Shown in pieces: positions 4,488 through 63,791 of a stretch of 64,000 bases of DNA. The translations under genes were made by a program, and so were the position numbers. Source of the DNA: Cornus controversa. Its lineage: Eukaryota > Streptophyta > Magnoliopsida > Cornales > Cornaceae. Position 1 is the first letter of the stretch; every line of letters begins with the position of its first letter. The notes beneath the pieces are model-generated. The model did not search any database, was not told the DNA's origin, and was given only the letters and a program-made list of their open reading frames with translations. The stretch covers positions 31,081,730 to 31,145,729 of the forward strand of contig CM048854.1 in NCBI GenBank assembly GCA_026545225.1, in the 5' to 3' direction.

Positions 4488-4585
4488 ATGAAGCTCCCCA
4501 CTTTACAGGCAAGTAGTCAGCTCTACGCTCTCTGCTGTGATTGATAGCATATTATATGTGTATATAATATAATACATCCTTCAAG
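4488..4585 (+). promoter_or_regulatory. mTERF A leader: short uORF and candidate GC-AG intron
   Basis: An upstream ATG at 4488 opens MKLPTLQASS..., stopping at 4544. Inside it lies CAG|GCAAGT at 4509, the strong consensus for a GC-type 5' splice site, and cttcaag at 4579-4585 can serve as 3' site, giving a 77-base intron. If spliced, the uORF becomes MKLPTLQK and its stop overlaps the mTERF start as ATGA. The donor is retained in copies A, B, D, F, G and H. Splicing itself is inferred. Confidence 0.5.
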
Positions 4586-4587
4586 AA

Positions 4588-5739
4588 ATGACAATATATA
4601 TCTGCAAAAGTCTCATTTCACTCTCTCTCAAGAACAATTCATATCTCAACAAAACTCGAATCTCCCTTTTCTCTTTCCTCTTCTTCTCTTCCTCTCCACA
4701 AGAGCAACCAAAAATACCCATTGCAGTGGCCGATTACTTGCTTGATAGACACAACTTTTCTCCTGAAACTGCTTCGAAAATCTCTTCCGTCGTAACGTAT
4801 CTGAAAAACCCTGAAAATTCCGATTCAATCCTCTCATTTCTCCAGGAAAGTGGTTTTTCGAAGACCCATCTTGAGCAAGTCATCAAACGCATGCCTCAAG
4901 TTCTCTCTGCAAATCTTGAGCACACCATCAAACCCAAAATCAATATTTTTCAAGACTTAGGATTTTATACTAGCGACGTTGTGGAAATTGTTTCGTCTGA
5001 TCCATGGATTCTAACCCGTAGCGTTGATAATCGGCTTGGGCCGTCAATTTTAGCATTGAAGAGTGTTTTGGATTCGAATTTGAATTTGTGTAGGCTCTTA
5101 AAGATGTCTGCTTGGTTTCTGAATTATGATTTGGAGAAAACTATGATACCCAATATAGAATTTTTGAAGAGCTGTGGTATTAGTTCGTCGCAAATAACCC
5201 GATATGTCTATAATTTCCCTAGATTTTTATTGCATAAACCGACGAGTATTAAAGAATTTGTGAAGAGGGTCGATGAGATGGGCTTTGACAGGAAGTCTAA
5301 GATGTTTCTTCATGCCATTGGGGCTATTAGTTCGATGACTATAGAGAATTGGGAGTTGAAGTTGGAGCTTTTTAGGAGTTTGGGGTTTTCAGAAGATGAC
5401 ATTTTGTTAGTTTTTAGGAGGGCGCCTCAGGTGTTTGCTGTGTCAGAGAGGAAAATTAAGGCGATAACACAGCTTTTCCTTAGCATGGACAAAGTTGATA
5501 TCTCATTTGTTGTTAAACACGCAGACTTACTTGCTCACAGTGTTGAAAAGAGGCTTAAACCACGGTTAAGAGTTCTGGAGGTTTTGGAAAGGAGGAATTT
5601 GCTTCTAAAAAAGCCTAGTTTGACGACTGTATGCAAGATCACTGATAAGAAGTTCAATGAGAAATATGTACTCCCTTATTCGAATGAAGTTGGCGAATTA
5701 TTCAAGGTTAACAGCAGAAATTTGTGCTTAAGATCATGA
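4588..5739 (+). CDS. mTERF family protein, copy A (intact frame, altered C-terminus)
   Basis: Intronless 383-codon frame for a plant mTERF, a helical-repeat nucleic-acid-binding protein that acts in mitochondria or chloroplasts in organelle transcription, RNA splicing or transcript ends. Residues 1-36 are rich in Ser, Leu and Lys with few acids and end FLFFSSS, as expected for an organelle transit peptide. From about residue 84 it shows degenerate mTERF repeats with the family's buried prolines (MPQVL, DPWIL, FPRFL, APQVF). The start is the ATG shared by all fuller paralogues. A 14-base deletion next to AAGGTTAAC shifts the last residues to SRNLCLRS instead of the KGSLTAEICA of copy D. This is one of two copies with no premature stop. 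Individual function and target are unknown. Confidence 0.9.
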   Translation: MTIYICKSLISLSLKNNSYLNKTRISLFSFLFFSSSPQEQPKIPIAVADYLLDRHNFSPETASKISSVVTYLKNPENSDSILSFLQESGFSKTHLEQVIKRMPQVLSANLEHTIKPKINIFQDLGFYTSDVVEIVSSDPWILTRSVDNRLGPSILALKSVLDSNLNLCRLLKMSAWFLNYDLEKTMIPNIEFLKSCGISSSQITRYVYNFPRFLLHKPTSIKEFVKRVDEMGFDRKSKMFLHAIGAISSMTIENWELKLELFRSLGFSEDDILLVFRRAPQVFAVSERKIKAITQLFLSMDKVDISFVVKHADLLAHSVEKRLKPRLRVLEVLERRNLLLKKPSLTTVCKITDKKFNEKYVLPYSNEVGELFKVNSRNLCLRS

Positions 5740-6435
5740 CATCCTGTGTAACAAGGCAGGTTGAGACTGAATCTTTTTTCGAAAAAGATAATGACTTGGC
5801 TGCATAGCATGGCATGTAAGTAGGTACTCTTTTGCACAAGATATTCACATTTTTTCTTGTATCCATATAGTGTACTACTACTCTGAAAAACATGGATTGA
5901 TTTTCCAGATAAGTGTCTCATTTTATTTGGTTTCTTCTACTTCACATCCCAATATTTAGTCGCAGAAGAGTGTAAGTTGATTCATCCCAGGGCATTTGTA
6001 GTTTGTGGGGCGTCTATGATTCTGCATTATGACGCCTTTTTAGCCACTAGAAAGCTCTATTTATTTTTCATTCAAGCCACCTTTGATCGTGTTATGCTCA
6101 GAAATCGAATTATGTAGAGATAGTATTACCAATGATGTAGCTGATCTCATTCAGATGATTCTAAGATAAGAGTTACTATAGCAGCTGAGTTAGTCTGCGT
6201 TGCAACTGACCAAGTTTTTTAAATTTCAATAGCAATTAAAGGCATGTAGATATGGTAGCTAGTGGCAAGGCCATCTTGTGAAAATTGGATCAATTGAGTT
6301 CAGCAGTAGGCTAAATACAACCAAGCATTAACTGCCAATATTATAAACAGTGTGGTGGCTCATGACTTTGCTGGTCCGTTTCATAGATTCTATTTTTGTT
6401 TCCTATTCCTTTCCTTGCATTGTTGATTGTTTTGT
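5740..6435 (+). other. 3' flank of mTERF A, shared with all units
   Basis: Non-coding sequence duplicated downstream of the other copies. It begins agatcatgacatcc and contains the position of the candidate 3' UTR intron. In this copy the donor reads catgtaagtagg rather than the caggtaagtagg of copies B, D and G, while the acceptor tgattttccag is kept near 5,910. Near 6,265 the sequence agctagtggcaaggcc is the empty site of the TRIM insertion found in units D and G. Confidence 0.7.
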
Positions 6436-6436
6436 T

Positions 6437-6646
6437 TCTCATTATATCTATATTATCTCTGTAGACATTAAAAAATTACATAATGGACCCAAAATACAAT
6501 TTGGATTTATCTTCAGTTTAGCCCACTTTGATATGTGGCTCAATGAGTCAGATAATTTGAAGCCCAGACCCATCACAAATAAATGAGTTATGGGCTGGTC
6601 TAAATTGTCTGAGAAGTCAAAGCACACTTGAAAATGGATCTAATGG

Positions 6647-6698
<52 letters not shown>

Positions 6699-8352: not shown

Positions 8353-8360
8353 GTGGCACC

Positions 8361-11194: not shown

Positions 11195-12340
11195 ATGACA
11201 ATATATATCTGCAAAAGTCTCATTTCACTCTCTCTCAAGAACAATTCATATCTCAACAAAACTTGAATCTCTCTTTTCTCTTTCCTCTTCTTCTCTTCCT
11301 CTCCACAAAAGCAACCAAAAAGGCCCATTGCAGTGGCCGATTACTTGCTTGATAGACACAACTTCTCTCCTGAAACTGCTTCGAAAGTCTCTTCCGTCGT
11401 AACGTATCTGAAAAACCCTCAAAAGTCCGATTCAATTCTTTCATTTCTCGAGGAATGTGGTTTTTCGAAGACCCATCTTGAGCGAATCATCAAACAACTG
11501 CCTCAAGTTCTCTCTGCAAATCTTGAGCGCTCCATCAAACCCAAAATCAAGGTTCTTCTAGACTTGGGATTTTCTTCTAGCGACGTTGTGGAAATTGTTT
11601 CGTGTGGCCCATCGATTCTAATTCGTAGCGTTGATAATCGGCTTGGCCCGTCAATTTTAGCATTGAAGAGTGCTCTGGGTTCGAATTTGGATGTGTGTAG
11701 GCTCTTAAAGATATCTGGGTGGTTTCTGAATCTTGATTTGGAGAAAACTATGATACCCAATATAGAATTTTTGAAGAGCTGTGGTATTAGTCCGTCGCAA
11801 ATAACCCGATCTGTTTATATTTACCCTAGACTTTTCTTGCATAAACCGACGAGTATTAAAGAATTTGTCAAGAGGGTTGATGAGATGGGCTTTGACAGGA
11901 AGTCTATGATGTTTCTTCATGCCATTCGGACTATTAGTTCGATGACTATAGAGAATTGGGAGTTGAAATTGGAGCTTTTTAGGAGTTTGGGGTTTTCAGA
12001 AGATGACATTTTGTCAGCTTTTAGGAGGGCGCCTCAGGCGTTTGCTGTCTCAGAGAGGAAAATTAAGGAGATGACACAGCTTTTCCTTAGCATGGGCAAA
12101 GTTGAAATCTCATTTGTTGTTAATCACCCAGAGTTACTTGTTTACAGTGTTGAAAATAGGCTTAAGCCACGGCTAAGAGTTCTGGAGGCTTTGGAAAGGA
12201 GGAATTTGCTTCCAAAAAAGCCTCCTCTGACAACTGTATGCAGGATCACTGATAAGAAATTCTTTGAGAAATATGTACTCCCTTATTCGAATGAAGTTGG
12301 CAAATTGTTCATGGTTAACAAGGGCTCATTGACAGCTTAA
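11195..12340 (+). pseudogene. mTERF copy B, one nonsense codon in the transit peptide
   Basis: Aligned with copies A and D the frame runs from the ATG at 11195 to the TAA at 12338-12340, 382 codons, with no frameshift. The only interruption is TGA at 11264-11266 (codon 24) where the paralogues have CGA (Arg), a C-to-T change at a CpG. The first in-frame ATG after it lies well inside the repeats (KTMIPN), so re-initiation would lose the transit peptide and the first repeats. The rest is well kept, with mTERF prolines LPQVL, GPSIL, YPRLF, APQAF and HPELL. A 12-base in-frame deletion removes the end of the usual C-terminus. It is probably a young pseudogene. Confidence 0.85.
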
Positions 12341-21959: not shown

Positions 21960-22366
21960 TTAAGCACATATTTCTGCTGTCAACGAGCCCTTGTTAACCT
22001 TGAATAATTCGCCGACTTCATTCGAACAAGGGAGTACATAATTCTCAAAAAACTTCTTATCAGTCATCTTGCATACAGTCGTCAAACTAGGCTTTTTTAG
22101 AAGCAAATTCCTCCTTTCCAAAACCTCCAGAACTCTTAACCGTGGTTTAAGCCTCTTTTCAACACTGTAAACAAGTAACTCTGGGTGATTAACAACAAAT
22201 GAGATATCAATTTTGCCCATGCTAAGGAGAAGCTGTGTTATCTCCTTAATTTTCCTCTCTGACACAGCAAACACATGAGGCGCCCTCCTAAAAACTGACA
22301 AAATGTCATCTTCTGAAAACCCCAAACTCTTAAAAAGCTCCAACTTCAACTCCCAATTCCCTATAT
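21960..22366 (-). pseudogene. mTERF copy C, C-terminal fragment fused to TRIM-derived DNA
   Basis: Codes, on the minus strand, for the last third of the protein (KLELFKSLGFSEDDILSVF onward to KGSLTAEICA) with no frameshift. Homology stops at the sequence encoding the NWELKL motif. Upstream of that point the DNA is the internal region of a TRIM remnant, in the order seen at 55,690-55,820. The N-terminal two thirds, including transit peptide and promoter, are absent, so it cannot encode a targeted mTERF. Confidence 0.9.
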
Positions 22367-22613
22367 TATATTATACTCTCCAATTCTCTTATTGGAATAT
22401 ATTGTTTGGTTGATCTCATCATCAATTTTAGATATAGTTACATCACACAAGTGAATCAAGAACTAGGTCTACCTCTAATACCAACTGTAACAGGTCGGAT
22501 GCTTACTAATGACCCAAAAATCTAAGCTATTGGATAGTGTTACCTACCCATCCATTTATACACATTCTCTTTTTCATTCGGATCCGATGTCGGACAAAAA
22601 AGACCTTCTAACA
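22367..22613 (-). mobile_element. TRIM fossil: one LTR plus primer-binding site (inverted copy)
   Basis: The LTR spans 22486-22613 (128 bp) on the minus strand: TGTTAGAAGGTC...GACCTGTTACA, with the near-terminal cacatcgg-type motif decayed here. Next to it is gttggtattagaggt, resembling a tRNA-Met primer-binding site (tggtatcagagc). The same LTR, site and flank occur at 55,561-55,820. The second LTR is missing. It is broken, and lies at the same relative place as in unit G. Confidence 0.7.
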
Positions 22614-22619
22614 CTTAGC

Positions 22620-23984
22620 CACTAGCTACCATATCTACATGCCTCTGATTGCTATTGAAATTTAAAAAACTTCGTCAGTAGCAACGCAGAGTAACTCAGC
22701 TGCTATAGTAACTCTTTATCTTAGAATCATCTAAATGAGATCAGCTACCTCATTGGTAATACTATCTTGGCACTACAATCAACAAAATCACATCAGCTAT
22801 GGGTCATCTCTACATAATTCGATTATGAGGATAACACGATCAAAGGTAGCTTGAATGAGAAGTAAATAGAGCTGTTTAGCTGCTAAAAGATGACCAACTG
22901 GCATAACGTCCACCTACGTTCTTCTGCGGACTAAATATAGGATGAGAAGTAGAAGAAACCAAACAAGAGAACTTTTTTTTTAACCAGGTTAAGAAATATC
23001 AAATGAAATAAAAACCAGAACAGCAATTAGATTTGATATTCAAAACCTCACCAGCATCAACTCTTCTTTCTGGTAGGTAAAATACACACACACTCACTAT
23101 TGCTCAACTGGCATCAACAGATCAACTCAGATTGTTCATGAGAGTGACCTTAAAAGAGAAGTTTAATTTCTCTTTCCCCTGAAAAGTTTCTAAATCCTTC
23201 TCTACTCTAGTGTTTAATCTCTTGTCAATCCAGTCTCAAGGTGGTAACAGAGTTCCACAAATTAAACCAGAATCATCTCAGAAGTTCCCAAAGATGGGAA
23301 ATTTGTAGGAAAGGAAATGAAAAAAGAAGCCACATCAGATACGATGCAGGAGGACAATTAAGAAGTACTCATCAGTGAATCGAAGTCAAAATTCACTATT
23401 GCAAGAAACACCTGCAGAGTGCAGACATCATTCCGGATACTGCTAGCATTGGAAGAAGTACCTTGCTTTCCCAAATCATGGTTATATTGGTATATCTGTA
23501 CTGACATGCACGAAAAATGTAAGTACTAAGTACCAATATACATGATAAACAAAACCTATAATAGCATACAATCATGCACAAATTTGAAAATTAAAAGCGA
23601 AGAATAAGATCATGGCTATACATGCTGTGTGCAGATACTTAATAATCACTGCCTGCACAAAATGAGAAAGCTTGAGCAAAATATAATACTTATCGGGGTT
23701 ATTGAACATGATGCCTCAATTGAAAATTTGAAACAAAAAGAAATGTTAAATTATGATAATATATTTCAACTCATTTAAAATGAGACAGTTATCTGGAAAA
23801 TCAATCCATGTTTTTCAGACTAGTACACTATATGGATACAAGAAAAAAGGTGAATATCTGGTGCAAAAGAGTACCTACTTACCTGCCATGCTATGCAGCC
23901 AAGTCATTTTCTTTTTCAAAAAAAGATTCAGTCTCATCCTGCCTCTAGGTATTAAATCATGACGTGACACAGGAGGTCATGATC
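22620..23984 (-). other. 3' flank of mTERF D with candidate 3' UTR intron
   Basis: Inverted counterpart of 54,280-55,560, collinear throughout. The candidate intron runs from 23882 to 23791 on the minus strand: donor CAG|GTAAGT, acceptor gattttccag, 92 bases. The ORFs at 23396-23581 and 23753-23962 have no support. Confidence 0.65.
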
Positions 23985-25139
23985 TTAAGCACATATTTCT
24001 GCTGTCAATGAGCCCTTGTTAGCCATGAATAATTCGCCAACTTCGTTTGAATAAGGGAGTACATATTTCTCAGAGAACTTCTTATCAGTGATCTTGCATA
24101 TAGTTGCCAAACTAGTCTTTTTTAGAAGCAAATTCCTCCTTTCCAAAACCTCCAGAATTCTTAGCCGTGGTTTAACCCTATTTTCAACACTGAGAACAAG
24201 TAACTCTGGGTGATTAACAACATATGAGATATCAACTTTGCCCATGCTAAGGAAAAGCTGTGTTAGCTCCTTAATTTTCCTCTCTGACACAGCAAACACA
24301 TGAGGCGCCCTCCTAAAAACTGACAAAATGTCATCTTCTGAAAACCCCAAACTCTTAAAAAGCTCCAACTTCAACTCCCAATTCTCTATAGTCATTGAAC
24401 TAATAGTCCGAATGGCATGAAGAAACATCATAGACTTCCTGTCAAAGCCCATCTCATCAACCCTCTTGACAAATTCTTTAATACTCGTCGGTTTATGCAA
24501 GAAAAGTCTAGGGGAATTATAGACAGATCGGGTTATTTGCGACGAACTAATACCACAGCTCTTCATAAATTCTATATTGGGTATCATAGTTTTCTCCAAA
24601 TCACATTTCAAAAACCACCCAGATATCTTTAAGACCCTAGAAACCTCCATATTCGAACCCAGAACACTCTTCAATGCTAAAATTGCCGGGCCAAGCCTAT
24701 TAGCGCTAGAAGTTAGAATCCAAGGGTCAGACGAAACAATTTCCACAACTTCGCTAGAAGAAAATCCCAAGTCTAGAAAAATTTTGATTTTGGGTTTGAT
24801 GGAGCGCTCAAGATTTGCAGAGAGTACTTGAGGCATGCGTTTGATGACTTGCTCAAGATGGGTCTTTGAAAAACCACTTTCCTCGAGAAATGAAAGAATT
24901 GAATCGAAATTTTCAGGCTTTTTCAGACGCGCTACGACGGAAGAGACTTCCGAAGCAGTTTCAGGAGAAAATTTGTGTCTATCAAGCAAGTAATCGGCCA
25001 CCGCATCGGGGCTTTTTGGCTGCTTTTGTGGTGAGGAAGAGAAGAAGAGGAAAGGGAGAAGTGAGATTCGAGTTTTGTTGAGATATGAAGAGTTCTTGAG
25101 AGAGAGTGAAATGAGACTTTTGCAGATATATATTGTCAT
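23985..25139 (-). CDS. mTERF family protein, copy D (best-preserved member)
   Basis: Complete 384-codon intronless frame. Residues 1-37 (MTIYICKSLISLSLKNSSYL...) form a Ser/Lys/Leu-rich presumptive organelle transit peptide. Tandem mTERF repeats follow at about 84-120, 121-157, 165-196, 197-235, 261-295 and 297-335, each with the hydrophobic-proline signature (MPQVL at 102, DPWIL at 138, SPRLF at 209, APHVF at 278, HPELL at 310). The family binds organelle DNA or RNA through the concave face of these repeats. The ATG at 25139 is chosen because every fuller paralogue has it; an upstream in-frame ATG at 25208 lies in the candidate leader intron. The C-terminus KGSLTAEICA is the ancestral form. 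The specific target is unknown. Confidence 0.92.
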   Translation of the reverse strand: MTIYICKSLISLSLKNSSYLNKTRISLLPFLFFSSSPQKQPKSPDAVADYLLDRHKFSPETASEVSSVVARLKKPENFDSILSFLEESGFSKTHLEQVIKRMPQVLSANLERSIKPKIKIFLDLGFSSSEVVEIVSSDPWILTSSANRLGPAILALKSVLGSNMEVSRVLKISGWFLKCDLEKTMIPNIEFMKSCGISSSQITRSVYNSPRLFLHKPTSIKEFVKRVDEMGFDRKSMMFLHAIRTISSMTIENWELKLELFKSLGFSEDDILSVFRRAPHVFAVSERKIKELTQLFLSMGKVDISYVVNHPELLVLSVENRVKPRLRILEVLERRNLLLKKTSLATICKITDKKFSEKYVLPYSNEVGELFMANKGSLTAEICA

Positions 25140-25141
25140 TT

Positions 25142-25580
25142 CTCGAAGAATCTCCAGTGATGTTACTGATATATTATATATATACACATATAATATGCTA
25201 TAAATCACAGCAAAAAACCTAGAAATGACTACTTGCCTGTAAAGCGGGAAGCTTCATAGATTTGCAGTTATTCGATTTCCTCTCTCTATCATTCTATCTC
25301 TGCTTCTCTGGAAGTGTTGCCCTAAACGAGCCCTGTAGGTTCTTCAGCTTTAAACAACTAGAGGACTAAAGCCTTGAACCCAAATGGACAATGGTATGAA
25401 AATGTCTGATGGAGTGAAAGCCCTAGGCTCCTAGCCCAAGCATTATATGGGCTGGTCCGAAGTTTGTAAAATATATAGGCTTGAATTTTGTTGCTGTTAT
25501 AAATTTAAGAACTATTATATTGGAGAGATGTATATATGTATATGAGAGGGAAGTAAACAGAGAACACACGAGAGTACACG
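25142..25580 (-). promoter_or_regulatory. mTERF D promoter region and leader
   Basis: Minus-strand leader with uORF MKLPALQASSHF from 25254, GC-type donor CAG|GCAAGT at 25236 and acceptor cttcgag at 25142 (95-base candidate intron). Only about 340 bases separate the leader from pseudogene E, so the whole promoter of this intact copy must lie there unless it extends into E. Confidence 0.5.
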
Positions 25581-25581
25581 T

Positions 25582-27231
25582 ATTTCTGCTATCATGAGCT
25601 CTTGTTAATCGCCAACTTCATTCGAACAAGGGAGTACATATTTCTCAAAGAAGTTCTTATCGAGGCTTTTTTGGAAACAAATTCCTCCTTTCCAAGACCT
25701 CCAGAACTCTTGGCCATGGCTTAAGCCTATTTTCAACACTGTAAACAAGCCTGGGTGATTAACAACAAATGAGATATCAAATTTGCCCATGCTAAGGAAA
25801 AGATGTGCTCTCTCCTTAATTTTCATATCTGGCACAGCAAACACCATACGCGCCTGATGAGCGCCGAATGTTCGAACAATCAAGTCTGTGTAATTGTGTA
25901 TTTTAATTCCTTAGTAATGCTTCTTTTATATATATATATATATATTACTTTTAGGGATTTAATGGTCATTTTCCCTAAATGAAGGTAATTAGACTTGGAT
26001 TTCATGGAAGAGAATTGAAGCATAGAGCTATTGGATTTGATATATGAAAGATCCAATGCTGATTGGGCTAAAAAGACAAGTCCAAAAAGAGTGTCCATTG
26101 AGGACACGAGCATTGGGCCAACACAAGTGACCCAAATTAGGGCCCAGTGGATGCTGAGGGCAATCGGTCGCCCTCAAAAGGGCGACCGATCACCCTTCCA
26201 ACCGGGACTGCTCTCTCTCAACTGATTAAACTGAATTTGAAGTTACATTTTCTCATAATCACTAGTTGGTCTTCTCGGAGAGAAAGGTTGCACGAATTTG
26301 GATAGCCATGGAGATGGAGAATTCCACCTTGAAGATAGAGTCTACATCAACCATGAGGAGCTAAATCCCCAATCTAGGAGAATTATGTAACTTTTTCTCT
26401 ATATTTTTGGATAATTTGTATTGAAATTAGTGATTTGACATCTGTATACATATATTGCGTGAGTAGGGCTCAAATTCATGGATGTTCTATGAATTATGAT
26501 TTAATTTGACGAAATTCAATTGCAATTTATGTTGTTCTTGTTTTAGATGAATGTATTATGTGTTTGATTTCAATTCTCTCCTTGTTCTTGTAGTTTAAGG
26601 GGGGAATTCATGCAATTAGGGGTTAATTTGGCAATCTCAATTTGGGCCTTGATGATTCATGCTAAGGAAATATTGATTGTGCTGCAATTAGTATAAATTA
26701 GCTTAGAATTAGTTAGATAGGCACTTCATACCAACCTAAGATGAGTTATACTTGTCCAATTGTGATTGAATTATATCCTTGAAGTTGTTGTGAGCTTGTA
26801 GCCATACAATTTTTGTATACTTGTGTAGCTCTACAATTTGAAAGCAAATATCCAAAAATGAGGGTTAGTGGTGAAGTAATTTCCCTAAATAATTTTATTA
26901 ATCAATTTCTCTCTCTTTTAGTTCAATTCTAGTTAGCTTGTTCAATTTAAGTTATCAACAACAATACTCAACCTATTTGAATCAACTACAGAATAATTTT
27001 GGAATTAGCACGCACTTGATTGTACATAATTACAAGTCTTTGTGGATCGATATCCCATCCCAATAGCCCTATTCTATGGGAATCCATGCTATTACGGGTG
27101 TGAAATTATAATTGATAAAAACCTAACCATAAGATAACACACATCAGCACCCTCCTAAAAAGTAACAAAATGTCATCTTTTGTAAACACCCAAACTTTTA
27201 AAAAGCTCCAACTTCAACTCCCAATTCTCTA
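25582..27231 (-). pseudogene. mTERF copy E, C-terminal fragment split by a solo LTR
   Basis: Two pieces of the same gene on the minus strand: 27147-27231 encodes the region from NWELKL to just before FRRAP, and 25582-25854 carries on to the C-terminus (MGKFDISFVVNHP, then FEKYVLPCSNEVG). They are separated only by the 1,292-bp LTR and its 5-bp duplication. The downstream piece has its own frameshifts and internal deletions. Like copy C it lacks everything upstream of the NWELKL region. It is non-functional. Confidence 0.88.
25855..27146 (+). mobile_element. Solo LTR, Ty3-gypsy type (fossil), inside mTERF E
   Basis: Begins TGATGAGCGCC and ends AACACACATCA. It is flanked by gcgcc (25850-25854) and gcacc (27147-27151), a 5-bp duplication with one CpG-type difference. 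The host sequence on both sides is mTERF coding sequence. The end region gtctttgtggatcgatatc resembles the 3' part of LTRs in the Tat/Athila group. Internal inverted motif cggtcgccctcaaaagggcg near 26,166. No internal region remains. Confidence 0.8.
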
Positions 27232-27252
27232 TATGGTTACCATTCAACATTG

Positions 27253-30216: not shown

Positions 30217-31345
30217 TTAAGCACATATTTCTGCCTTGTTAACCTTGAATAATTCGCCAACTTCATTCAAATAAGGGAGTACATATTTCTCATTGAACTT
30301 CTAATCAGTGATCTTGCATACAGTCGTCAAACTAGGCTTTATTAGAAGCAAATTACTCCTTTCCAAAGCCTCCAGAACTCTTAACCGTGGTTTAAGCCTA
30401 TTTTCAACACTGTGAACAAGCAAGTGTGGGTGATTAACAACAAATGAGATATCAACTTTGCCCATGCTAAGGAAAACCTGTGTTATCTCCTTAATTTTCC
30501 TCTCTGACACAGAAAACACCTGAGACGCCCTCCTAAAAACTGACAAAATGTCATCTTCTGAAAACCCCAAACTCTTAAAAAGCTCCAATTTCAACTCCCA
30601 ATTCTCTATAGTCATCGAACTAATAGCCCGAATGGCATGAAGAAACATCTTAGACTTCCTGTCAAACCCCATCTCATCAACCCTCTTCACAAATTCTTTA
30701 ATACTCGTCGGTTTATGCAAGAAAAGTCTAGGAAAAATATAGACCATTCCGATTATTTGCGACGAACTAATACCACACCTCTTCATAAATTCTATATTGG
30801 GTATCATAGTTTTCTCCAAATCATAATTAAAAAACCACCCAGATCTCTTTAAGACCCTAGACAGATCCATATTCGAACCCAAAACACTCTTCAATGCTAA
30901 AATTGATAGGACAAGCCGATTATCAACGCTACGAGCTAGAATCCATGGGTCAGACGTAACAATTTCCACAACGTCGCTAGAAGAAAATCCCAAGTCTTGA
31001 AAAATCTTGATTTTGGGTTTGATGGAGCGCTCAAGATTTGCAGAGAGAAGTTGAGGCATGCGTTTGATGACTTGGTCAAGATGGGTCTTCGAAAAACCAC
31101 TTTCCTCGAGAAATGAAAGGATTGAATCGGACATTTCGGGGTTTTTCAGATACGCTACGACGGAAGAGACTTTCGAAGCCGTGTCTATCAAGCAAGTAAT
31201 CGACCACTGCAACGGGGCTTTTTGGTTGCTTTTGTGGAGAGGAAGAGAAGAAGAGGAAAGGGAGAGGTGAGATTCGAGTTTTGTTGAGATATGAAGAGTT
31301 CTTGAGAGGGAGTAAGGTGAGACTTTTGCAGATATATATTGTCAT
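30217..31345 (-). pseudogene. mTERF copy F, frameshifted and prematurely stopped
   Basis: The start ATG at 31345 and transit peptide (MTIYICKSLTLLPLKNSSYL) are present. A net loss of 17 bases after LLDRH (near 31,185) shifts the frame. The downstream frame is then open for some 300 codons (NFSP...lost; TASKVSSVVAYLKNPEMSD onward) to TAG at 30301-30303, where paralogues have AAG (Lys of ITDKKF). A third deletion removes part of the C-terminal tail, similar to copy A. Repeat signatures MPQLL, DPWIL, FPRLF and HPHLL are otherwise kept. It is probably a pseudogene, although a protein from an internal start cannot be excluded. Confidence 0.88.
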
Positions 31346-31639: not shown

Positions 31640-32842
31640 AAAAAAATTACACTTAAATAAAGTGAGAAGGCCTAAATTACAAAGTGATCTATTTTAAAAG
31701 TTAATTTTTCATTTTGATTGAATTAAACAAAATAATCACATATGCATTGAAAATTATTATTCAAATCTAAAATGTCATTTAATCTCTTATTCCAACTCAC
31801 ACTAAACTCCGTTCAGCTCTTCTGTAGCTAAAGGAGCGTTGTGCATGACTAAAGAAAATTTAACAAATTATTTTTTTCGTCTCACCGGAAGAAAATCGAA
31901 TTTATTGCAAAACACCACTGCCTGAATAAATTATTGATCGTTGATCATCTCTCATCACAAAAATATGGTCTCTTATTTTGTTTTAGTGAATTACTTTCTT
32001 TACTTTTCAAAAAAAAAAAAAATTTTGAATTGTATGGCAAATTCATGTGCCAATGGTTCTTAATTTTGAGGTTTTATAAATGTAATGAACGGTTTTACTA
32101 GTCACTTTTTTAACCTGTCATTATTAATTATCTAATTCATATTTGCTTATTTAAATATGTTCTTATTTTGATGTAGTGAACAGACATATTCTATGTAGAA
32201 TGACTCATAACTCATTTGTTGATAAAGGTCAAATTTTGTTTGCATTTTCAGGCATACTTGAAATTTATAGGAGTGTACTTATAAAATTTGAATTTTTCTT
32301 ATCTTTGTGCCCAATGTTTTGATGTAATATCTCTTCCTTATACTCATATTTTTTTAGGCATATCAAATCGAAAAGTTATCCAAGTACATCTGAAAAATCT
32401 ACTTCATTCTCATTCAGATATAATTAATGTGGTTTGATACCACGAGTTCATCCACTTGCATTAATCTAAGATGAAAAATTAGTTGGCTAGCATTCAGGGC
32501 CATATAGGTGGTCTAATTTTGACTACTTTACGACATAAGAGCATATATGCTCACAAGTGCTAGAATTACGTATATTTTGCCTTATTTTATGGGTTTGTTC
32601 ACTTTTACCGGATTATTTTTATATTCTTACAATTTTTCTTAAGTTCTTCAATGAAGGAATTATTTGATACAAGAATGATAATTTGATATTTTGGAATTAG
32701 AAATTGAAGGGCATTTTGGGCTTGAATAATAATTTTCAATGCATATGTAATGTTTGCTTAATTCAACCAAAATGAAAAATAAACTTTTAAAATAGACCAC
32801 TTTGTAATTTAAGTCTCCTAACTTTATTTAAGTGTAGTTTTC
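31640..32842. repeat. Long inverted repeat, arms ~150 bp
   Basis: The arm at 31,640-31,790 (acacttaaataaagtgag, tatgcattgaaaattattat) is the imperfect reverse complement of 32,693-32,842. The spacer is about 0.9 kb and has no ORF of interest. It looks like a TIR or foldback transposon, but the outer limits and target duplication were not resolved. The left arm begins about 100 bases from where unit F homology ends. Confidence 0.7.
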
Positions 32843-32939
32843 TCTATTTTAATTTAGTACATAAATAATAGCTAAATTATAAAATTAGTGAGTACATTAA
32901 ATATTATTTAGTTCAGTTTTTTCAATTCTCTTCCCTAAA

Positions 32940-52399: not shown

Positions 52400-53009
52400 T
52401 GGGACAAACAAAAAACAAAAAAATTCCAAAACCTTTGAATTTAGAGTAATAACATATAATACATCCAGGTGAGATTCACTTAATGACATCTTGTCCTTAT
52501 TTTTCCTTTATCTTGTTTAGTTGGTTAAATCTTTGGGTTCATGTGAGTAAATAAAATATCATCTTCCTCAACTTCAAAAATTATAACACAGTGAAAAATG
52601 TTAACATGGAATAAAAACAAAGATAAAACTGAAATAGAAACCCACTTGTACATTAGTATTTTTTCTTTCAAAGTGAAAGGAAACTAGTCTCACCTAAATG
52701 TGTGATAAATAAATAAATAAAACATGTTGTGGGGCTTCTGTGAACCAAACCTTGTAAAATTATGAGCCAATTATGAAAAAGACCTGGGACTTGGGACTAG
52801 CCCACCTCATGCTTGGGCTAAGACTCTCACTCCATCAGGCATTTTCATTCCAGTGTCCATTTTGGTTTAAGGCTGTAAGCCTCTAGTTGTTTGTAAAGCT
52901 GAAGAACAGACAGAGAGCTCGGACCAGGTTTAAGGAAACACTGTTCATCATTCAAACACTTTCGAGAGAACCAGAGAGAGAGAGAGAGAGAGTCGAATGA
53001 CTGCAAATC
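52400..53009 (+). promoter_or_regulatory. Upstream block of mTERF copy G
   Basis: Homologous to 3,500-4,487 and 9,660-11,083 with internal losses. The proximal part keeps ccatcaggcattttcatt and gtaaagctgaagaac. An (AG)n run at 52,974-52,991 lies just before the uORF. Confidence 0.55.
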
Positions 53010-53010
53010 T

Positions 53011-53123
53011 ATGAAGCTCCCCAGTTTGAAGGCAAGTAGTCATCTCTACATTCTTTACTGTTTTTGATAGCATATTATGTGTGTGTGTATATATATATAA
53101 TACATCACTGGACATCCTTCAAG
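53011..53123 (+). promoter_or_regulatory. mTERF G leader: uORF and candidate GC-AG intron
   Basis: uORF at 53011 (MKLPSLKASSHLYILYCF). Donor AAG|GCAAGT at 53032, acceptor cttcaag at 53123, 92 bases. The sequence after the acceptor is atATGAC, so a spliced uORF (MKLPSLKI) still ends on the TGA that overlaps the mTERF ATG. Confidence 0.5.
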
Positions 53124-53125
53124 AT

Positions 53126-54279
53126 ATGACAATATATATCTGCAGAAGTCTCATCTCACTCTCTCTCAAGAACTCTTCAAATCTCAACAAAACTCGAATC
53201 TCACTTCTCTCCTTCCTCTTCTTCTCTTCCTCTCCACAAAAGCAACCAAAAAGCCCCGTTGCAGTGGCCGATTACTTGCTTGATAGACACAAATTTTCTC
53301 CTGAAACTGCTTCGAAAGTCTCTTCCGTCGTAACGTATCTGAAAAACCCTGAAAAGTCCGATTCAACCCTTTCATTTCTCGAGGAATGTGGTTTTTCGAA
53401 AACCCAGCTTGAGCGAATCATCAAACAGCTGCCTGGAGTTCTCTCTGCAAATCTTGAGCGCACCATCAAACCCAAAATCAAGATTTTTCAAAACTTGGGA
53501 TTTTCTTCCAGCGACGTTGTGGAAATTGTTTCGTTTGACCCATGGATTCTAACTCGTAGTGTTGATAATCGGCTTGGCCCGTCTATTTTAGCATTGAAAA
53601 GTGTTCTGGGTTCGAATATGGATGTGTCTAGGGTCTTAAAGATATCTGGGTGGTTTTTGAAGCGTGATTTGGAGAAAACTATGATACCCAATATAGAATT
53701 TATGAAGAGCTGTGGTATTAGTTCGTCGCAAATAACCCGATTTGTCTATAATTTCCCTAGACTTTTCTTGCATAAACCGACGAGTATTAAAGAATTTGTC
53801 AAGAGGGTTGATGAGATGGGCTTTGACAGGAAGTCTATGATGTTTCTTCATGCCATTCGGACTATTAGTTCAATGACTATAGAGAATTGGGAGTTGAAGT
53901 TGGAGCTTTTTAAGAGTTTGGGGTTTTCAGAAGATGACATTTTGTCAGTTTTTAGGAGGGCGCCTAATGTGTTTGCTGTGTCAGAGAGGAAAATTAAGGA
54001 GATAACACAGCTTTTCCTTAGCATGGGCAAAGTTGATATCTCATTTGTTGTTAATCACCCACGCTTGTTCTCAGTGTTGAAAATAGGCTTAAACCACGGC
54101 TAAGAGTTCTGGAGGCTTTGGAAAGGAGGAATTTGCTTCTAGTAAAGCCTAGTTTGACGACCGTATGCAAAATCACTGATAAGAAGTTCAATGAGAAATA
54201 TGTACTCCCTTATTTGAATGAAGTTGGTGAATTATTCATGGTTAACAAGGGCTCGCTGACAGCAGAAATATGTGCCTAA
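53126..54279 (+). pseudogene. mTERF copy G, one frameshift near the C-terminus
   Basis: ATG at 53126, transit peptide MTIYICRSLISLSLKNSSNL, then mTERF repeats with LPGVL, DPWIL, FPRLF and APNVF, uninterrupted for about 312 codons. A net 4-base loss in the HPELLV region (near 54,069) shifts the frame, which then runs RLFSVLKIGLNHG to a stop at 54103. The remaining ancestral frame continues to the TAA at 54277-54279 (KGSLTAEICA). A 325-residue protein lacking the last repeat could be made. It may be recently inactivated or a truncated active form. It is the closest counterpart of copy D by shared flanks. Confidence 0.85.
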
Positions 54280-55560
54280 GATCATGACCTCCTGTGTCAT
54301 GTCATGATTTAATACCTAGAGGCAGGATGAGACTGAATCTTTTTTTTGAAAAAGAAAATGACTTGGCTGCATAGCATGGCAGGTAAGTAGGTACTCTTTT
54401 GCACCTGATATTCACATTTTTTCTTGTATCCATATAGTGTACTACTCTGAAAAACATGGATTGATTTTCCAGATAACCGTCTCATTTTAAATGAGTTGAA
54501 ATATATTATCATAATTTAACATTTCTTTTTGTTTCAAATTTTCAATTGAGGCATCATGTTGAATAACCCCAAAAATTATTATATTTTGCTCAAGCTTTCT
54601 CATTTTGTGCAGGCAGTGATTATTAAGTATTTGCACACAGCATGTATAGCCATGATCTTATTCTTCGCTTTTAATTTTCAAATTTGTGCATGATTGTATG
54701 CTATTATAGGTTTTGTTTATCATGTATATTGGTACTCTGTACTTACAGTTTTCGTGCATGTCAGTACTGATCTACCAATATAACCATGATTTGGGGAACC
54801 AATGTACTTCTTCCAATGCTGGCAGTATCCCGAATGATGTTGTCTGCACTCTGCAGGTGTTTCTTGCAATAGTGAATTTTGACTTTGATTCACAGATGAG
54901 TACTTCTTAATTGTCCTCCTCCATCGTATCTGATGTGGCTTCTTTTTCCATTTCCTTTCCTACAAATTTCCCATCTTTGGGAACTTCTGAGATGATTCTG
55001 GTTTAATTTGTGGAACTCTGTTACCACCTTGAGACTGGATTGACAAGAGATTAAACACTAAAGTAGAGAAGGATTTAGAAACTTTTCAGGGGAAAGAGAA
55101 ATTAAACTTCTCTTTTAAGGTCACTGTCATGAACAAGCTGATTTGATCTGTTGATGCCAGTTGAGCAATAGTGAGTGTGCGTGCGGTTAAAAAAAAAAAG
55201 TTCTCTTGTTTGGTTTCTTCTACTTCTCATCCTAATATTTAGTCCGCAAAAGAACGTAGGTGGACGTTATGCCAGTTGGTCATCTTTTTAGCAACTAGAC
55301 AGCTCTATTTACTTCTCATTCAAGCTACCTTTGATCGTGTTATCCTCATAATCGAATTATGTAGAGATGACCCATAGCTGATGTGATTTTGTTGATTGTA
55401 GTGCCAAGATAGTATTACCAATGAGGTAGCTGATCTCATTCAGATGATTCTAAGATAAAGAGTTACTATAGCAGCTGAGTTACTCTGCGTTGCTACTGAC
55501 GAAGTTTTTTAAATTTCAATAGCAATCTAAGGCATGTAGATATGGTAGCTAGTGGCTAAG
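54280..55560 (+). other. 3' flank of mTERF G with candidate 3' UTR intron
   Basis: Collinear, inverted, with 22,620-23,984. Candidate intron 54383-54472: donor CAG|GTAAGT, acceptor gattttccag, 90 bases. No coding sequence beyond short unsupported ORFs. Confidence 0.65.
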
Positions 55561-55815
55561 TGTTAGAAGGTCTTTTTTGTCCCACATCGGATCCGAATGA
55601 AAAAGAGAATGGGTATAAGTGGACGAGTAGGTAACACTATCCAATAGCTTAGATTTTTGGGTCATTAGTAAGCTTCCGACCTGTTTCAGTTGGTATTAGA
55701 GGTAGACCCAGTTTTTGATTCACTTGTGTGATGTAACTATATCTAAAATTGATGATGAGATCAACCAAACAATATATTCCAATAAGAGAATTGGAGAGTA
55801 TAATATAATATAGTA
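55561..55815 (+). mobile_element. TRIM fossil: one LTR plus primer-binding site
   Basis: LTR 55561-55688 (128 bp): TGTTAGAAGGTC...GACCTGTTTCA, with tcccacatcggatcc near its start, a hallmark of plant TRIM LTRs. It is followed by gttggtattagaggt, a tRNA-Met-like primer-binding site. The second LTR is absent. The pre-insertion sequence agctagtggcaagg survives in units A and F. Confidence 0.72.
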
Positions 55816-56182: not shown

Positions 56183-56591
56183 CGGTTTAGTTCAGTTCAG
56201 ACCGGTTCAGATAGGCATGAAATCATAACCGAAAATTTACACTTTGAAGGTTTTAAAACCGTGATCGAACCGAACTGTAAAAAGTAAAACCGAACTGTCC
56301 AGTTCAGTCTAGATTTTTGTGCACCCCTACTACTTAATAGGAGTATAGATAACTAGGAAAAAACAATAATAGTATAGATAAATAAAATAGAAAGTTTGTG
56401 TTTAATAAAAAGAAAAGTTTGTGTTTCAATCTAGTATTAATTTCAAATTAAGATGGTTTAAAAAAAAGAAGTTTTTGTATATATTTATTTTTGTATATAT
56501 AAATAATTCTAGGGTTGTTATCTTTTATCGTTTGGTTAGATGAAAATTGCAAAAGAAAAAGAAAAAGAACCATAAATTTTTTGAACATTAA
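55816..56591 (+). repeat. Tandem duplication, copy 1 (partner ~58510-58860)
   Basis: cattttgtctcttatacatt-type text, aattaaataatatcctaa, tagtatagataaataaaata and tcgtttggttagatgaaaat recur in the same order from 58,510. Copy 1 is expanded by a hAT MITE (55,948-56,329) and ends at the Harbinger element. Confidence 0.75.
55948..56329. mobile_element. hAT-type MITE rich in GTTCAG/GAACCG
   Basis: Termini TTGGAGTGCACAAGG and, reversed, TAGGGGTGCACAAAA. Flanking 8-mers ctactcga (55940-55947) and ctacttaa (56330-56337) differ only at a CpG. The tandem partner near 58,640 reads aaccctacttaatgg without the element, confirming an insertion. A (TA)n core sits at 56,153-56,180. Confidence 0.8.
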
Positions 56592-57965
56592 TGCTGCTTT
56601 TGGTACGCGGGAATGGAATGGAATGAGTATGGGAATGAAATGGAATAGTCATTCTCATTATATTATTTGGTTGTAAATATGAAATAAAGTAATAATGAAA
56701 TAAATTTTTAATCAAATTCTCTGAAATACCTCTCCTAGTGACAAATAAATTAAACCAACAAATGTGTGGGGGAGGAAGGTGGCGGTGGAGGTGGTGGCGA
56801 CGATGTGGTGGTGGAGGTGGCGGTGGAGGAAGTTGGTGATGTGGAGGTGGTGGAGTGGTGTGGTGGGGGTGGTGGTATGGTGGAGGAAGGTGGTGGTGAT
56901 GCGATGTGGCGGCAATGGTAGTGGAGGAAGGTGGCGATATAGAGGTGGTCGTGGAGGAAGGTGGCGATATGGAGGTGGTGGAGTGGTGTGGTGGGGGTGG
57001 TGGAGGAAGATGACGGTGGTGGTGGCAGTGGTGTGGTGGGGTTGGAGGAGGAAGTGGAGGTGGTGGCGATGCAATGTGGCAGCGACAGTGGTGGAGGAAG
57101 GTGGCGATATAGAGGTGGTGGTGTGGTGGTGGAGGAAGATGGAGGTGCTGGTATGGTGGTGGAGGAAGGTGGTAGTGGTGTGGTGGGGTTGGAGGTGGAG
57201 GTGGTGGCGATGTAATGTGGCGGCGGTGGTGGTGGCAGTGGTGTGGTGGGGTTGGAGGTGGAGGTGGTGGTGATGCAATGTGGTTGCGGCGGTGGTGGAG
57301 GAAGGTGGTGATATAGAGGTGGTGGTGTGGTGGTGGAGGAAGGTGGTGATGTGGAGGTGATGGTATGGTGGTGGAGGAAAGTGGTGGCAGTGGTGTGGTG
57401 GGGTTGGAGGTGGAGGTAGTGGCGATGCAATGTGGCACCGGCAGTGGTGGTGGAGGAAGGTGGCGATATAGCAGTGGTGGTGTGGTGGTGGAGGAAGGTG
57501 GCAATGTGGAGGTGGTGGAGTGGTGTGGTGGCCTGGTGGGGGTGGTGTTATGGTGGTGGAGGAAGGTGGCGGTGGTGGTGGTAGTGTTGTGGTGGAGGTG
57601 GAGGTGGTGGCGATGTGATGTGGCGGCGACGGTGGTTGAGGAAAGTTGCGATATAAAGGTGATGGAGTAGGAAGGTGCTGGGGGTGGTGATGGTGGAGGC
57701 GGCGATGGCTGTGGTGGTAGAGCCGATGGTAGTGGTGGCGGCAGTGATTGGGCCGATGTTATGGTGAAAGTGGTGGAGGTGAAGAGTTTTTTTTTGTAAT
57801 ATGAATTTTTATTTTTAATCTTACTGGAAATAGAATGTCCATTCCATAGGTTTAACTATGGAATGGATTTTCATTCCAAGGGAATGACCATTCTCACCTT
57901 AAAATTCATACCAAATAAATAAATGGTTGAAATGGGCATTCCATTCCGATGTATCAAACATAGCA
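56592..57965. mobile_element. PIF/Harbinger-type element filled by a GGT-rich minisatellite
   Basis: Ends TGCTGCTTTTGGTACG and, reversed, TGCTATGTTTGATACA, each followed inward by repeated GGAATGG/CCATTCC. TAA flanks at 56589-56591 and 57966-57968. The tandem partner near 58,860 reads ttttgaacatcaatagtttg, an empty site. The interior 56,765-57,780 is a purine-strand array of GTGGTGGAGGAAGGTGGCG-like units. Long Pro/His and Gly/Val ORFs on both strands come from that array. Confidence 0.82.
56765..57780 (+). repeat. GGTGGAGGAAGGTGGCGAT-type minisatellite
   Basis: About 1 kb of related units built on gtggtggaggaaggtggcga, tatagaggtggtgg and gcaatgtggc, with a higher-order period of roughly 100-150 bases (the gatgcaatgtggc tract recurs near 57,068, 57,272 and 57,425). 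Strong G-versus-C strand skew. Confined to the Harbinger-type element. Confidence 0.9.
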
Positions 57966-59150: not shown

Positions 59151-59164
59151 AAAATTCAAGACTA

Positions 59165-59775: not shown

Positions 59776-59793
59776 ATAGATATAAAAATATAT

Positions 59794-60386: not shown

Positions 60387-60409
60387 AAAATATATATTAC
60401 ATATTAAAC

Positions 60410-60780: not shown

Positions 60781-60902
60781 TTTTTTTTTTATTGGTAAAC
60801 TTCATTGACACCCTCTAAGGTTTGAGGTATTGTGATGCGGGTACATCACCGCCCCATTGTTCATCATCATCAACACCACCACCAACCAAAACTGACCCAA
60901 TT

Positions 60903-61247
60903 CCGGCCACCATCATCACCGTTTCTCACCACCGGAACCGAGCTCCATCATCGCCAAGAAGCGAAGAGCCATCATCTTTAACCAAGAGATGCTGAAATTT
61001 GCAAAACGATCTGGACAAACCAATTGATCATTGATTGTTATCTATACGGTAGTACATGTTACTCTGCTGGCCCTCCGGCCACATTATCATCGTTTCTCAC
61101 CACCGGAACCGAGCTCTATCATCGCCGAGAAGCGAAGACCCATCATCTTCAACCAAGAGATGCTAAAATTTGCAAAACGATCTGCACAAACCAATTGATC
61201 GTTGATTGTTCTGTATACGGTAGCACATGTTACTCTGCCGGCCCTCC
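60903..61247 (+). repeat. 172-bp tandem duplication x 2
   Basis: Both units run from ccggccac through tctcaccaccggaaccgagc and aaccaagagatgct to actctgc(t/c)ggccctcc. They differ by a modest number of substitutions. The sequence is C-rich and codon-like, but neither unit has a convincing frame in common with the other. Confidence 0.9.
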
Positions 61248-61730
61248 GCTACCACGCCGCTAATTCCCAACGTCAGCCACCACCATTTCCACTACTCACC
61301 TCTCTCCAATAACTACCACAGAATCACCCAACTGCAAATACAATAAAAAATAACAGGGCACAAAATCAAAGAGGAGAGATCAACCCATCAACTCACATTC
61401 TCTGTTTTAGATCTGAGTTGTTTGAGTTGCAAAACATTCAAATATGTGTGAATGGCTTCAGAGGCTAAGAAGATGTTTACCCAAAACATCGATGGTGGCT
61501 TCAAATCTATTAATAGATTGGGTGTTTGGTGGTGACTGTGGTTGGAATTGTGGTGGTGGTGGTGACTATGGTTGTGGATTGTGGTGGTGGTGGTGAATGT
61601 GGTTGTAGATTGTGGTGGTGGATTTGGTGACTGTGGTTAGGATTGTGGTGGTGGTAACTGTGGTTGTGGATTTGGTGACTGTGGTTTAGGGATGGTGATT
61701 GTGGTTAGTGGCGGTGGTTGTCGTTAGTGG

Positions 61731-62080
61731 CAATGGTTGGAGGAGGAGATGAGAGAGAAAGAAGCAGTTGTGGTGGTGGCTGGTGGTGGTGGTGGTTGGA
61801 GGAAAAGAATAGGGGTGGTGTTGTGGTTGGTGGCGGTGGTGGTTGGAGGAGGAGATGAGAGAGAAAGAAGCAGTAGTGGTGGTTGTGGTGGTGGTTGGAG
61901 GAAAAGAACAGGGGTGGTGGTTGTGGTTGGTGGCGGTGGTGGTTGGAGGAGGAGATGAGAGAGAAAGAAGCGGTGGTGGTGGCTGTGGTTAGGTGGCGGT
62001 GGTGGTTGGAGGAGGAGATGAGAGAGAAAGAAGCGGTGGTGGTGGCTGTGGTTAGGTGGCGGTGGTGGTTGGTGTTTTGG
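61731..62080 (+). repeat. ~65-100-bp minisatellite, GGAGGAGATGAGAGAGAAAG units
   Basis: ggaggagatgagagagaaag occurs four times (near 61,740, 61,843, 61,945 and 62,009), alternating with gtggttggtggcggtggtgg-type spacers. The last two units are almost identical. ORFs on both strands (Pro/His-rich, Gly/Val-rich) follow from the repeat. Confidence 0.88.
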
Positions 62081-62334
62081 TTAGGGTTTGTGGTTGAAGA
62101 AGGTAGAGAGAGAAATGGTGGACATATAATCATGAGAGTAGTTTTGTTATTTTCTAAATCTAATATTTTTATATTAAAATTCGTTTAAATAATCAGGGGC
62201 AGTTAGGACATTTCACTTACTAAAAAATTGAAAATTCTGACAAGAGTGTTAGTGACAAAAAATGACGAAGTTGTAGCTGCATAATAATACCTCAAACCTC
62301 AATGGGTATCAATGAAGTTTACCTTTTTTTTTTT

Positions 62335-62639
62335 GGCTTGGGCTAAGGCTTTCACTCCATCAGATATTTTCAAACCAGTGTCCATTTGGGTTTAAGGCTT
62401 TAAACCTCTTGTTGGTGTAAAGCTGAAAAACCTACAGAGCTCGAACCAGGTTTAGGGCAACACTGTTCATCATTCAAACACTTTCAGAGAACCAGAGATA
62501 GAATGATAGAGAGAAAATCGAATAATTGCAAATCGATTAAGCTCCCCACTTTACAGGCAAGTAGTCATCTCTACACTCTTTGCTGTGATATATATATATA
62601 TATCATACTTCAGTAGCATCACTGGAGATCCTTCAAGAA
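62335..62639 (+). promoter_or_regulatory. mTERF H proximal upstream region and leader
   Basis: Keeps ccatcagatattttcaa, gtaaagctgaaaaac and the donor CAG|GCAAGT near 62,557, but the uORF start codon is lost (gattaagctcccc instead of atgaagctcccc). A (TA)n tract near 62,589 lies in the candidate intron. Confidence 0.5.
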
Positions 62640-63791
62640 ATGACAATATATATTTGCAAAAGTCTCATTTCACTCTCTCAAGAACAATTCATATCTCAAC
62701 AAAACTCGAATCTCTCTTTTCTCTTTCCTCTTCTTCTCTTCCTCTCCACAAAAGCAACCAAAAAGCCCCATTGCAGTGGCCAATTACTTGCTTGATAGAC
62801 ATTAATTTTCTCCTGAACGGCTTCAAAAGTCTCTTCCATCGTAACGTATCTGAAAAGCCCTGAAATGTCCGATTCAATTCTTTCATTTCTCGAGGAAAGT
62901 GGTTTTTCAAAGACCCATCTTGAGCGAATCATCAAACACGTGCCTCAAGTTCTCTCTGCAAATCTTGAGAGCACCATCAAACCCAAAATCAAGGTTCTTC
63001 TAGACTTGGGATTTTCTTCTAGCGATGTTGTGGAATTTGTTTCGTCTGACCCATGGATTCTAACTTATAGCGTTAATCGGTTTGGCCCGTCAATTTTGGC
63101 ATTGAAGAGTGTTCTGGGTTCAAATATGGATGTGTCTAGGCTCTTATAGATATTATCTGGGTGGTTTTTGAAGCATGATTTGGAGAAAACTATGATACCC
63201 AATATAGAATTTATGAAGAGCTGTGGTATTAGTTTGTCGCAAATAACCCGATATGTTTATATTTACCCTAGATTTTTCTTGCTTAAACCGACGAGTATTA
63301 AAGAATTTGTCAAGAGGGTCGATGAGATGGGCTTTGACAGGAAGTCTAAGATGTTTCTTCATGCCATTCGGGCTATTAGTTCGATGACTATAGAGAATTG
63401 GGAGTTGAAGTTGGAGCTTTTTAAGGAGTTTGGGGTTTCAGAGGAACATTTTGTCAGTTTTTAGGAGGATGCCACAGGTGTTTGCTGTGTCAGAGATGAA
63501 AATTAAGGAGATACACAGCTTTTCCTTAGCATGGGCAAATTTGATATCTCATTTGTTGTTGATCACCCAGCATTACTTGCTTACAGTGTTGAAAAGAGGG
63601 TTAAACCACGGCTAAGAGTTCTGGAGGTTTTGGAAAGGAGGAATTTACTTCTAAAAAAGCCTAGTTTGGCAACTGTATGCAGTATCACTGATAAGAAGTT
63701 CTCTGAAAAATATGTACTCTCTTATTCGAATGAAGTTGGCGAATTGTTCATGGTTAACAAGGGCACGTTGACAGCAGAAATATGTGCTTAA
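62640..63791 (+). pseudogene. mTERF copy H, multiply damaged
   Basis: The whole gene is recognisable from ATG (62640) to TAA (63789-63791, KGTLTAEICA). Lesions seen against copy D are a 2-base loss in the transit peptide (tcactctctcaag), a 1-base loss in the SPETAS region near 62,815, an in-frame TAG at 63147-63149 with a 3-base insertion, deletions in the SLGFSEDD region near 63,425-63,450, and a 1-base loss near 63,512. Open pieces between them keep VPQVL, DPWIL, YPRFF, MPQVF and HPALL. It is an old pseudogene compared with B and G. Confidence 0.92.

Follow-up and report, generated by a model that had tools for sequence, protein, structure and literature searches.

The stretch of DNA considered here, C10:31081730-31145729 in the 772-Mb genome of Cornus controversa (61 contigs), is referred to at its full length of 64,000 nucleotides as the window, and it carries a cluster of mTERF genes. 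Copies in this cluster have been duplicated, damaged and exchanged with one another, and in three mTERF groups of the genome, including this one, amino-acid changes are in excess at particular positions of the mTERF repeat. The explanation we favour, held with slightly better than even confidence, is a young, locally recombining cluster of organelle-type mTERF genes whose copies are kept for diversity in target recognition. Differences between the copies are greatest at positions matching those with which human MTERF1 reads its DNA target, and this suggests that the copies pursue targets that change. The selection pattern by repeat phase, which names candidate recognition positions, is new with respect to the literature searched; clustered, restorer-like mTERF genes were already known.

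Amino-acid change around the repeat prolines

Phase was defined as the position relative to the proline opening the short third helix of each mTERF repeat, and nonsynonymous and synonymous differences per site (pN and pS) were counted by phase, free of any tree. The intact copy D, which gives the codon numbering of the window set, has the features of the family, repeats of about 33 residues with three helices and a conserved proline, a motif described in PMC4705650. Its anchors are prolines 103, 139, 210, 279 and 311 and glycine 174. In low-confidence models a short third helix starts at each of them, although in a second model the one at anchor 174 is not separate. Between 210 and 279 lies a repeat that lacks such a proline.

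At phases −2, −1, +1, +4 and +5, pN/pS was 2.03 in the window set (30 codons) vs 0.72 elsewhere (211 codons). In a second cluster, on contig C1, the same five phases gave 2.09 (40 codons) vs 0.68 (273), and in a third group, on C2 and C4, 2.35 (25 codons) vs 0.46 (220) over five anchors, one of them a serine. Permutation of pN returned 0 of 5000 for the window set, for the C2/C4 group and, with proline anchors only, for C1. Restriction to proline anchors, dropping D 174 and C1 241, left ratios of 1.83 vs 0.78 in the window set and 2.26 vs 0.72 in C1. Synonymous change was not greatly raised at these phases (pS 0.107 vs 0.083 in the window set and 0.106 vs 0.098 in C1). The pN phase profiles of the two clusters are correlated (Spearman 0.68), with only the true register out of 34 rotations reaching 0.68, and there was no significant correlation between their pS profiles (0.21).

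Five phase sets were tried. One of these (−2, +1, +4, +9) was derived from human MTERF1 and was found after the window sites had already been seen, and the data themselves prompted the addition of phases −1 and +5, a choice against which cross-tests between the sets guard only in part. Phases picked in the window set and applied to C1 gave 1.84 (interval 1.14-3.39). The residues that vary between the copies include R/Q/H/C at codon 101, S/R/Y/H at 144, C/R/Y/L/H/F at 179 and L/H/Y at 316. Residues of these kinds are often found at nucleic-acid contacts.

Site models of selection

Codon-based evidence comes from the models M1a and M2a, the only pair used, M7 and M8 having returned non-finite likelihoods and M8a having optimised below M1a; damaged codons were treated as gaps. 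Across nine full-length copies, twice the log-likelihood difference (2ΔlnL) was 55.3, with 8.4 % of codons at ω of about 4, and for the six copies with no more than one main lesion it was 15.5. The nine-copy value on a single tree varies with tree and grid (55.3, 39.1, 53.4, 38.1) and is 30.7 when six segments are each given their own tree.

These values were compared with mosaic null sets simulated without positive selection. Using eight segments, none of 100 sets reached the window value of 38.1 (null maximum 27.8). Using six segments, the maximum of 40 sets was 18.2 vs 53.4 observed; some of the six-segment replicates were negative, reflecting imperfect optimisation, and the eight-segment run used more starts. 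For the C1 cluster, 2ΔlnL was 78.4 or 81.7, the latter reached by none of 100 sets (null maximum 33.5).

Thirteen codons of the window set have an M2a posterior above 0.8. The tested repeat region, codons 90-330, contains nine of them, all but one at phases −2, +1, +4 or +5 of a proline (or of glycine 174). In C1, 20 of 30 such codons are in its repeat region, 14 of the 20 being at −2, −1, +1, +4 or +5; five of the 10 outside the region are at the ragged C-terminus.

The register of human MTERF1

PMC4705650 places the motif prolines of human MTERF1 along the major groove and lists R162, R202, R251, R350 and R387 as direct readout residues. MTERF1 residues were placed by adding 72 to the PDB chain position, with which the residue types fit; PDB titles name R162A, F243A and F322A. 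In the repeat register R162 is at P−2, R202 and R350 are at P+1 and R251 is at P+9; of the other residues substituted by alanine in PDB titles, F243 is at P+1 and F322 at P+4. Likewise in register are E165 (P+1) and R169 (P+5), the contacts of which are unstated in the sources. The placement covers neither R387 nor Y288.

Human MTERF1 is not known to form a tandem cluster. It belongs to the same repeat family as the Cornus proteins, its prolines line the groove and its placed readout residues are in the same register (PDB 3mva and substitution mutants; PMC4705650), but it binds one double-stranded DNA site. A plant protein, mTERF15, is reported to bind RNA and to be needed for nad2 intron splicing (PMC7909791). 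Because MTERF1 binds double-stranded DNA and mTERF15 RNA, the register is transferred to the cluster proteins by inference; on this basis, their phase positions would contact nucleic acid.

Organisation and turnover of the cluster

Searching with copy D (tblastn) located eight mTERF copies or fragments in the window, A and B on the plus strand, C to F on the minus strand and G and H on the plus strand. Lesions were called by frameshift-aware alignment of each copy to D. The five long frames (A, B, D, F and G) match Pfam mTERF PF02536 (E 1.9e-30 to 1.6e-38, 106-133 bits, cut-off 23.1). A search of the genome with the DNA of the D unit added two further copies on C10 (U1 and U2) and one on C9; no others were present around the locus in the 256 kb examined.

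4588..5739, plus strand: copy A, mTERF frame open from its ATG, the final few residues being frame-shifted relative to D
11195..12340, plus strand: copy B, one stop at codon 24, in the presumed targeting sequence; open beyond it; last few residues shifted
21960..22364, minus strand: copy C, C-terminal fragment covering codons 251-384; truncated at 22361-22365, the end of the D/G unit
22361..25463, minus strand: D unit, about 3.1 kb, inverted relative to the G unit; 91 % identical to it over the gene part and 96-97 % over the downstream flank
23985..25139, minus strand: copy D, intact mTERF frame, 384 aa
24192..24839, minus strand: codons 101-316 of D, mTERF repeats with nine of the 13 codons of M2a posterior above 0.8, eight of them at −2, +1, +4 or +5
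25557..25856, minus strand: copy E, degenerate C-terminal fragment
27151..27232, minus strand: ninth remnant, some 27 codons derived from the latter half of the gene
30220..31345, minus strand: copy F, damaged at two points, by a frameshift/deletion near codon 56 and a stop at codon 353; a few codons missing near the end
52789..55813, plus strand: G unit, partner of the D unit
53126..54276, plus strand: copy G, frameshifted once, at codon 312; trees place it as the sister of D
62640..63791, plus strand: copy H, heavily damaged, with two stops and four frameshifts
C10:30928851-30929990: copy U1, open frame, about 152 kb upstream of the window
C10:30944405-30945554: copy U2, one stop and one frameshift, about 136 kb upstream of the window
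C9:43.535 Mb: C9 copy, one frameshift

The original prediction, made from the window alone, was of eight members in both orientations, with A and D intact, a single nonsense codon in B, a single frameshift in G and C-terminal fragments at C and E, and all of this agrees with the alignments. The cluster is larger than was claimed, owing to the tiny ninth remnant, U1, U2 and the C9 copy. Heavy damage had been assigned to both F and H; this holds for H, with F having two lesions and a few missing codons. Each copy was also said to lie in a shared duplicated unit, which is not the case for E, as it has only some 270-320 bp in common with other copies.

Among the 11 copies and larger fragments (A to H, U1, U2 and the C9 copy), three frames are open, those of A, D and U1. 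U1 has seven additional codons near codon 43, beside a codon that varies between copies and that belongs to the linker following the targeting-like sequence. In composition, the first 40 residues of D have no acidic, five basic and nine serine residues.

Fragment C is cut within 5 bp of the end of the D/G unit. Between D and G, 76 of about 1146 coding sites differ (6.6 %), and identity is 74 % in the near upstream flanks and 96-97 % in the downstream flanks; due to this unequal divergence, the units are considered to be mosaics of different ages. In the pairwise homoplasy index (PHI) test, 0 of 1000 permutations were as low as observed for the nine window-type copies, and 2 of 1000 for the C1 cluster. 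Together with the flanks of unequal age, this indicates exchange between copies. Full-length copies compared in pairs have a dS of 0.065-0.184 and a dN/dS of 0.46-1.23. The proposed birth-and-death mode is therefore supported by the three open frames out of 11, the remnant, the chimeric units and the exchange between copies.

In a whole-genome protein search, the main matches to the subfamily are 73-100 % identical (short split pieces 69-84 %, fragment E 52 %), below which there is a sharp gap, the next-nearest mTERF in the genome being 34 % identical. The cluster is therefore a lineage-specific burst. A static single-copy locus is rejected within this genome, as three copies lie outside the window, one of them on another contig.

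There are 163 mTERF exon matches genome-wide. A family tree of 31 sequences, nine copies of the window subfamily and 22 other mTERFs (two of 24 mTERF frames were omitted as short), contains three tight combs on long branches: the window subfamily, the C1 cluster and the C2/C4 group. The C1 cluster (C1:13.92-14.81 Mb) has 14 loci, mostly intact, of which 12 are in the tree; 11 of these 12 genes have a long open frame, and the one with a truncated frame was dropped from the selection analysis. The third group has four open copies on two contigs (C4:11.75 Mb and C2:31.70-31.86 Mb).

Surrounding sequence

Just upstream of copy H, positions 60902-62072 contain a 171-bp tandem duplicate and TGGTGG-type minisatellites. 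A GGT/ACC-rich minisatellite block at 56536-57855 (GC 0.44, strong GC skew) has long overlapping frames in several phases, which look compositional since the longest has no Pfam match. Positions 32001-36000 are very AT-rich (GC 0.22-0.24), with a GC skew of 0.29 in the first half, and arrays of an 81-82-bp unit are present at 32965-33209 and 33356-33508. A stretch of about 690 bp at 2686-3373 forms an imperfect palindrome, with 74 % self-complementarity, and may be a fold-back element. Scans of the window for Rfam families (gathering thresholds) and tRNA genes gave no match, and none of the five other long frames in the window has a Pfam match above cut-off.

The best 150 of 3814 pentatricopeptide repeat (PPR) candidates were scored. 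Among these are PPR frames in tandem on C10, mostly about 627-640 aa long, at 29.55-29.66 and 30.05-30.07 Mb, a distance of 0.9-1.4 Mb to the mTERF cluster. They are a candidate restorer-like PPR cluster. Another PPR cluster is at C6:45.4-46.5 Mb.

Interpretation and alternatives

Under the favoured explanation, nuclear mTERF helical-repeat genes would turn over through duplication, inversion, unequal exchange and loss, and the surviving copies would be retained for diversity in target recognition. Their proteins have a scaffold and an N-terminal targeting-like sequence in common and differ in the residues around each repeat proline, the region with which human MTERF1 reads bases. As for restorer-of-fertility-like (RFL) PPR proteins, the most likely role would be to follow changing transcripts or DNA sites in an organelle, probably the mitochondrion. 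The cluster proteins would enter an organelle, and their target may be a fast-changing organelle transcript. The arms race proposed in the original prediction gains indirect support from the fast change at MTERF1-like readout positions in three mTERF groups; an organelle transcript as the opponent, a fertility-restorer role of the locus and a conflict with selfish organelle genes can be put forward as hypotheses.

A number of observations weigh against this explanation. Most copies are broken, and the three open copies alone (A, D and U1) give 1.18 vs 0.64, so that the concentration of change at the five phases is clear and an excess over neutrality is not. Phases picked in C1 and applied to the window set gave 1.57, with 1 inside the interval (0.83-3.58), and the MTERF1-derived set was weaker (1.72 vs 0.81 in the window set, 1.29 vs 0.80 in C1). 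By individual phase, the signal at +9, the position of R251, is weak, that at −2 in C1 is strong at one anchor only, and that at −1 is weaker in the window set than in C1. Codon 205, with a posterior above 0.8, is at phase −5, and four of the 13 high-posterior codons (43, 77, 349 and 356) are outside the repeat region tested. The contrast with non-clustered genes favours the explanation but comes from one dispersed mTERF pair only, whose residues vary less at the five phases (14 of 45 differ) than elsewhere (121 of 271). The structural models are also poor, AlphaFold giving a mean predicted local distance difference test (pLDDT) score of 53 from one or five sequences; the best Foldseek matches are MTERF3 3m66 (E 2.4e-4) and MTERF1 3n7q (E 9e-4), with template modelling (TM) scores of 0.3-0.4 from a poor model.

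An unlikely alternative is that the copies have been divided among normal organelle transcripts, for example in RNA processing or splicing, with no selfish conflict. The nine tandem MTERF genes in 70 kb of A. thaliana, for which the author of PMC3471360 favours plant-specific functions and environmental adaptation, fit with this, as do the RNA binding of mTERF15 and its part in nad2 intron splicing (PMC7909791). Rapid copy loss and short-lived diversity, however, would fit poorly with fixed, essential targets.

Relaxed constraint is doubtful as an explanation. Redundant copies would drift, with the loop positions around the proline being the most tolerant part of the repeat, and this would account for the broken copies, for dN/dS of 0.46-1.23 among the full-length copies and for the ratio of only 1.18 in A, D and U1. 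Against it, pN/pS is about 2 in both the window set and C1, higher than the 1 expected under neutrality, with the remainder of the domain at about 0.7, and the pattern recurs in C1, with a long open frame in 11 of 12 genes. In addition, the five phases are less, not more, variable in the dispersed pair, and pS is not much raised there in the clusters.

Gene conversion is very unlikely to have produced the site-model signal as an artefact. The PHI test is strongly significant in both clusters and flank ages are unequal, but the observed values were reached by none of the 100 mosaic-tree null sets in either cluster, segment-specific trees keep a 2ΔlnL of 30.7 and the phase counts of pN and pS need no tree. 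Examined with the PHI test, the segment trees and the 40 + 100 + 100 mosaic null sets, recombination is rejected as the sole cause of the signal. Finally, although tandem repeats may be assembled wrongly, assembly duplicates or haplotype copies, which would have overturned the original prediction, can be dismissed with near certainty: coding parts differ by about 6-10 % and whole units by about 9-15 % (84.7-91.2 % identity across 1.4-2.4 kb in the 15 pairs from the six full-length window copies), lesions are distinct and flanks are partly unrelated.

Comparison with known systems

Wheat has a clade of clustered mTERF genes with an evolution like that of restorer-like PPR genes (Walkowiak et al., 2020, PMC7759465); such RFL-mTERF genes are reviewed in PMC10226603, citing Melonek and Small (2022), and mTERF-related links in rye and barley are given in PMC8571214, PMC8431178, PMC8035072 and PMC7154926. 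A restorer-PPR-like behaviour of clustered mTERF genes was already published for cereals (PMC7759465, PMC10226603). Like these genes, the Cornus subfamily is expanded and organised in clusters, and because clustered RFL-mTERFs are in print for cereals it is a further case of a known type. RFL-mTERFs are, however, described mainly for cereals, and the source passages report no codon-level or repeat-phase selection.

The A. thaliana chromosome 1 array (Kleine, 2012, PMC3471360) is similar in its nine tandem MTERF genes in 70 kb, several with mitochondrial products, but its passages describe neither a mostly decayed state nor site-specific selection. RFL PPR clusters (Melonek et al., 2016, PMC5075784) are likewise clustered and plastic, and the residues with which they recognise bases, at fixed positions of the repeat, are under diversifying selection, although they belong to an unrelated protein family in which positions 5 and 35 have a known code. 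That selection pointed to the RNA-binding residues of PPR proteins and contributed to the establishment of the PPR code (PMC5075784).

A corresponding code for mTERF proteins was not found in the literature searched. Codon-level or repeat-phase selection in plant mTERFs was not found in the titles and abstract openings of literature on selection and mTERF, and repeat-phase selection is absent from passages of PMC7154926, PMC9791056 and PMC3017797, the last reporting a selection test on nucleotide-binding leucine-rich repeat (NB-LRR) genes with mTERF pseudogenes among them.

A broader proposal, offered tentatively and with the odds somewhat against it, is that plant mTERFs have a modular recognition code at −2/−1, +1 and +4/+5 of each repeat proline. 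Tandem mTERF clusters may then join restorer PPRs as a second system of this kind, with nuclear genes rewriting the code so as to follow changing organelle sequences. The phase-selection signal in three mTERF groups of one genome, aligned with the base-reading residues of MTERF1, leaves a few positions per repeat to test, and it would open a way to test what is recognised by clustered mTERFs and whether they are restorers.

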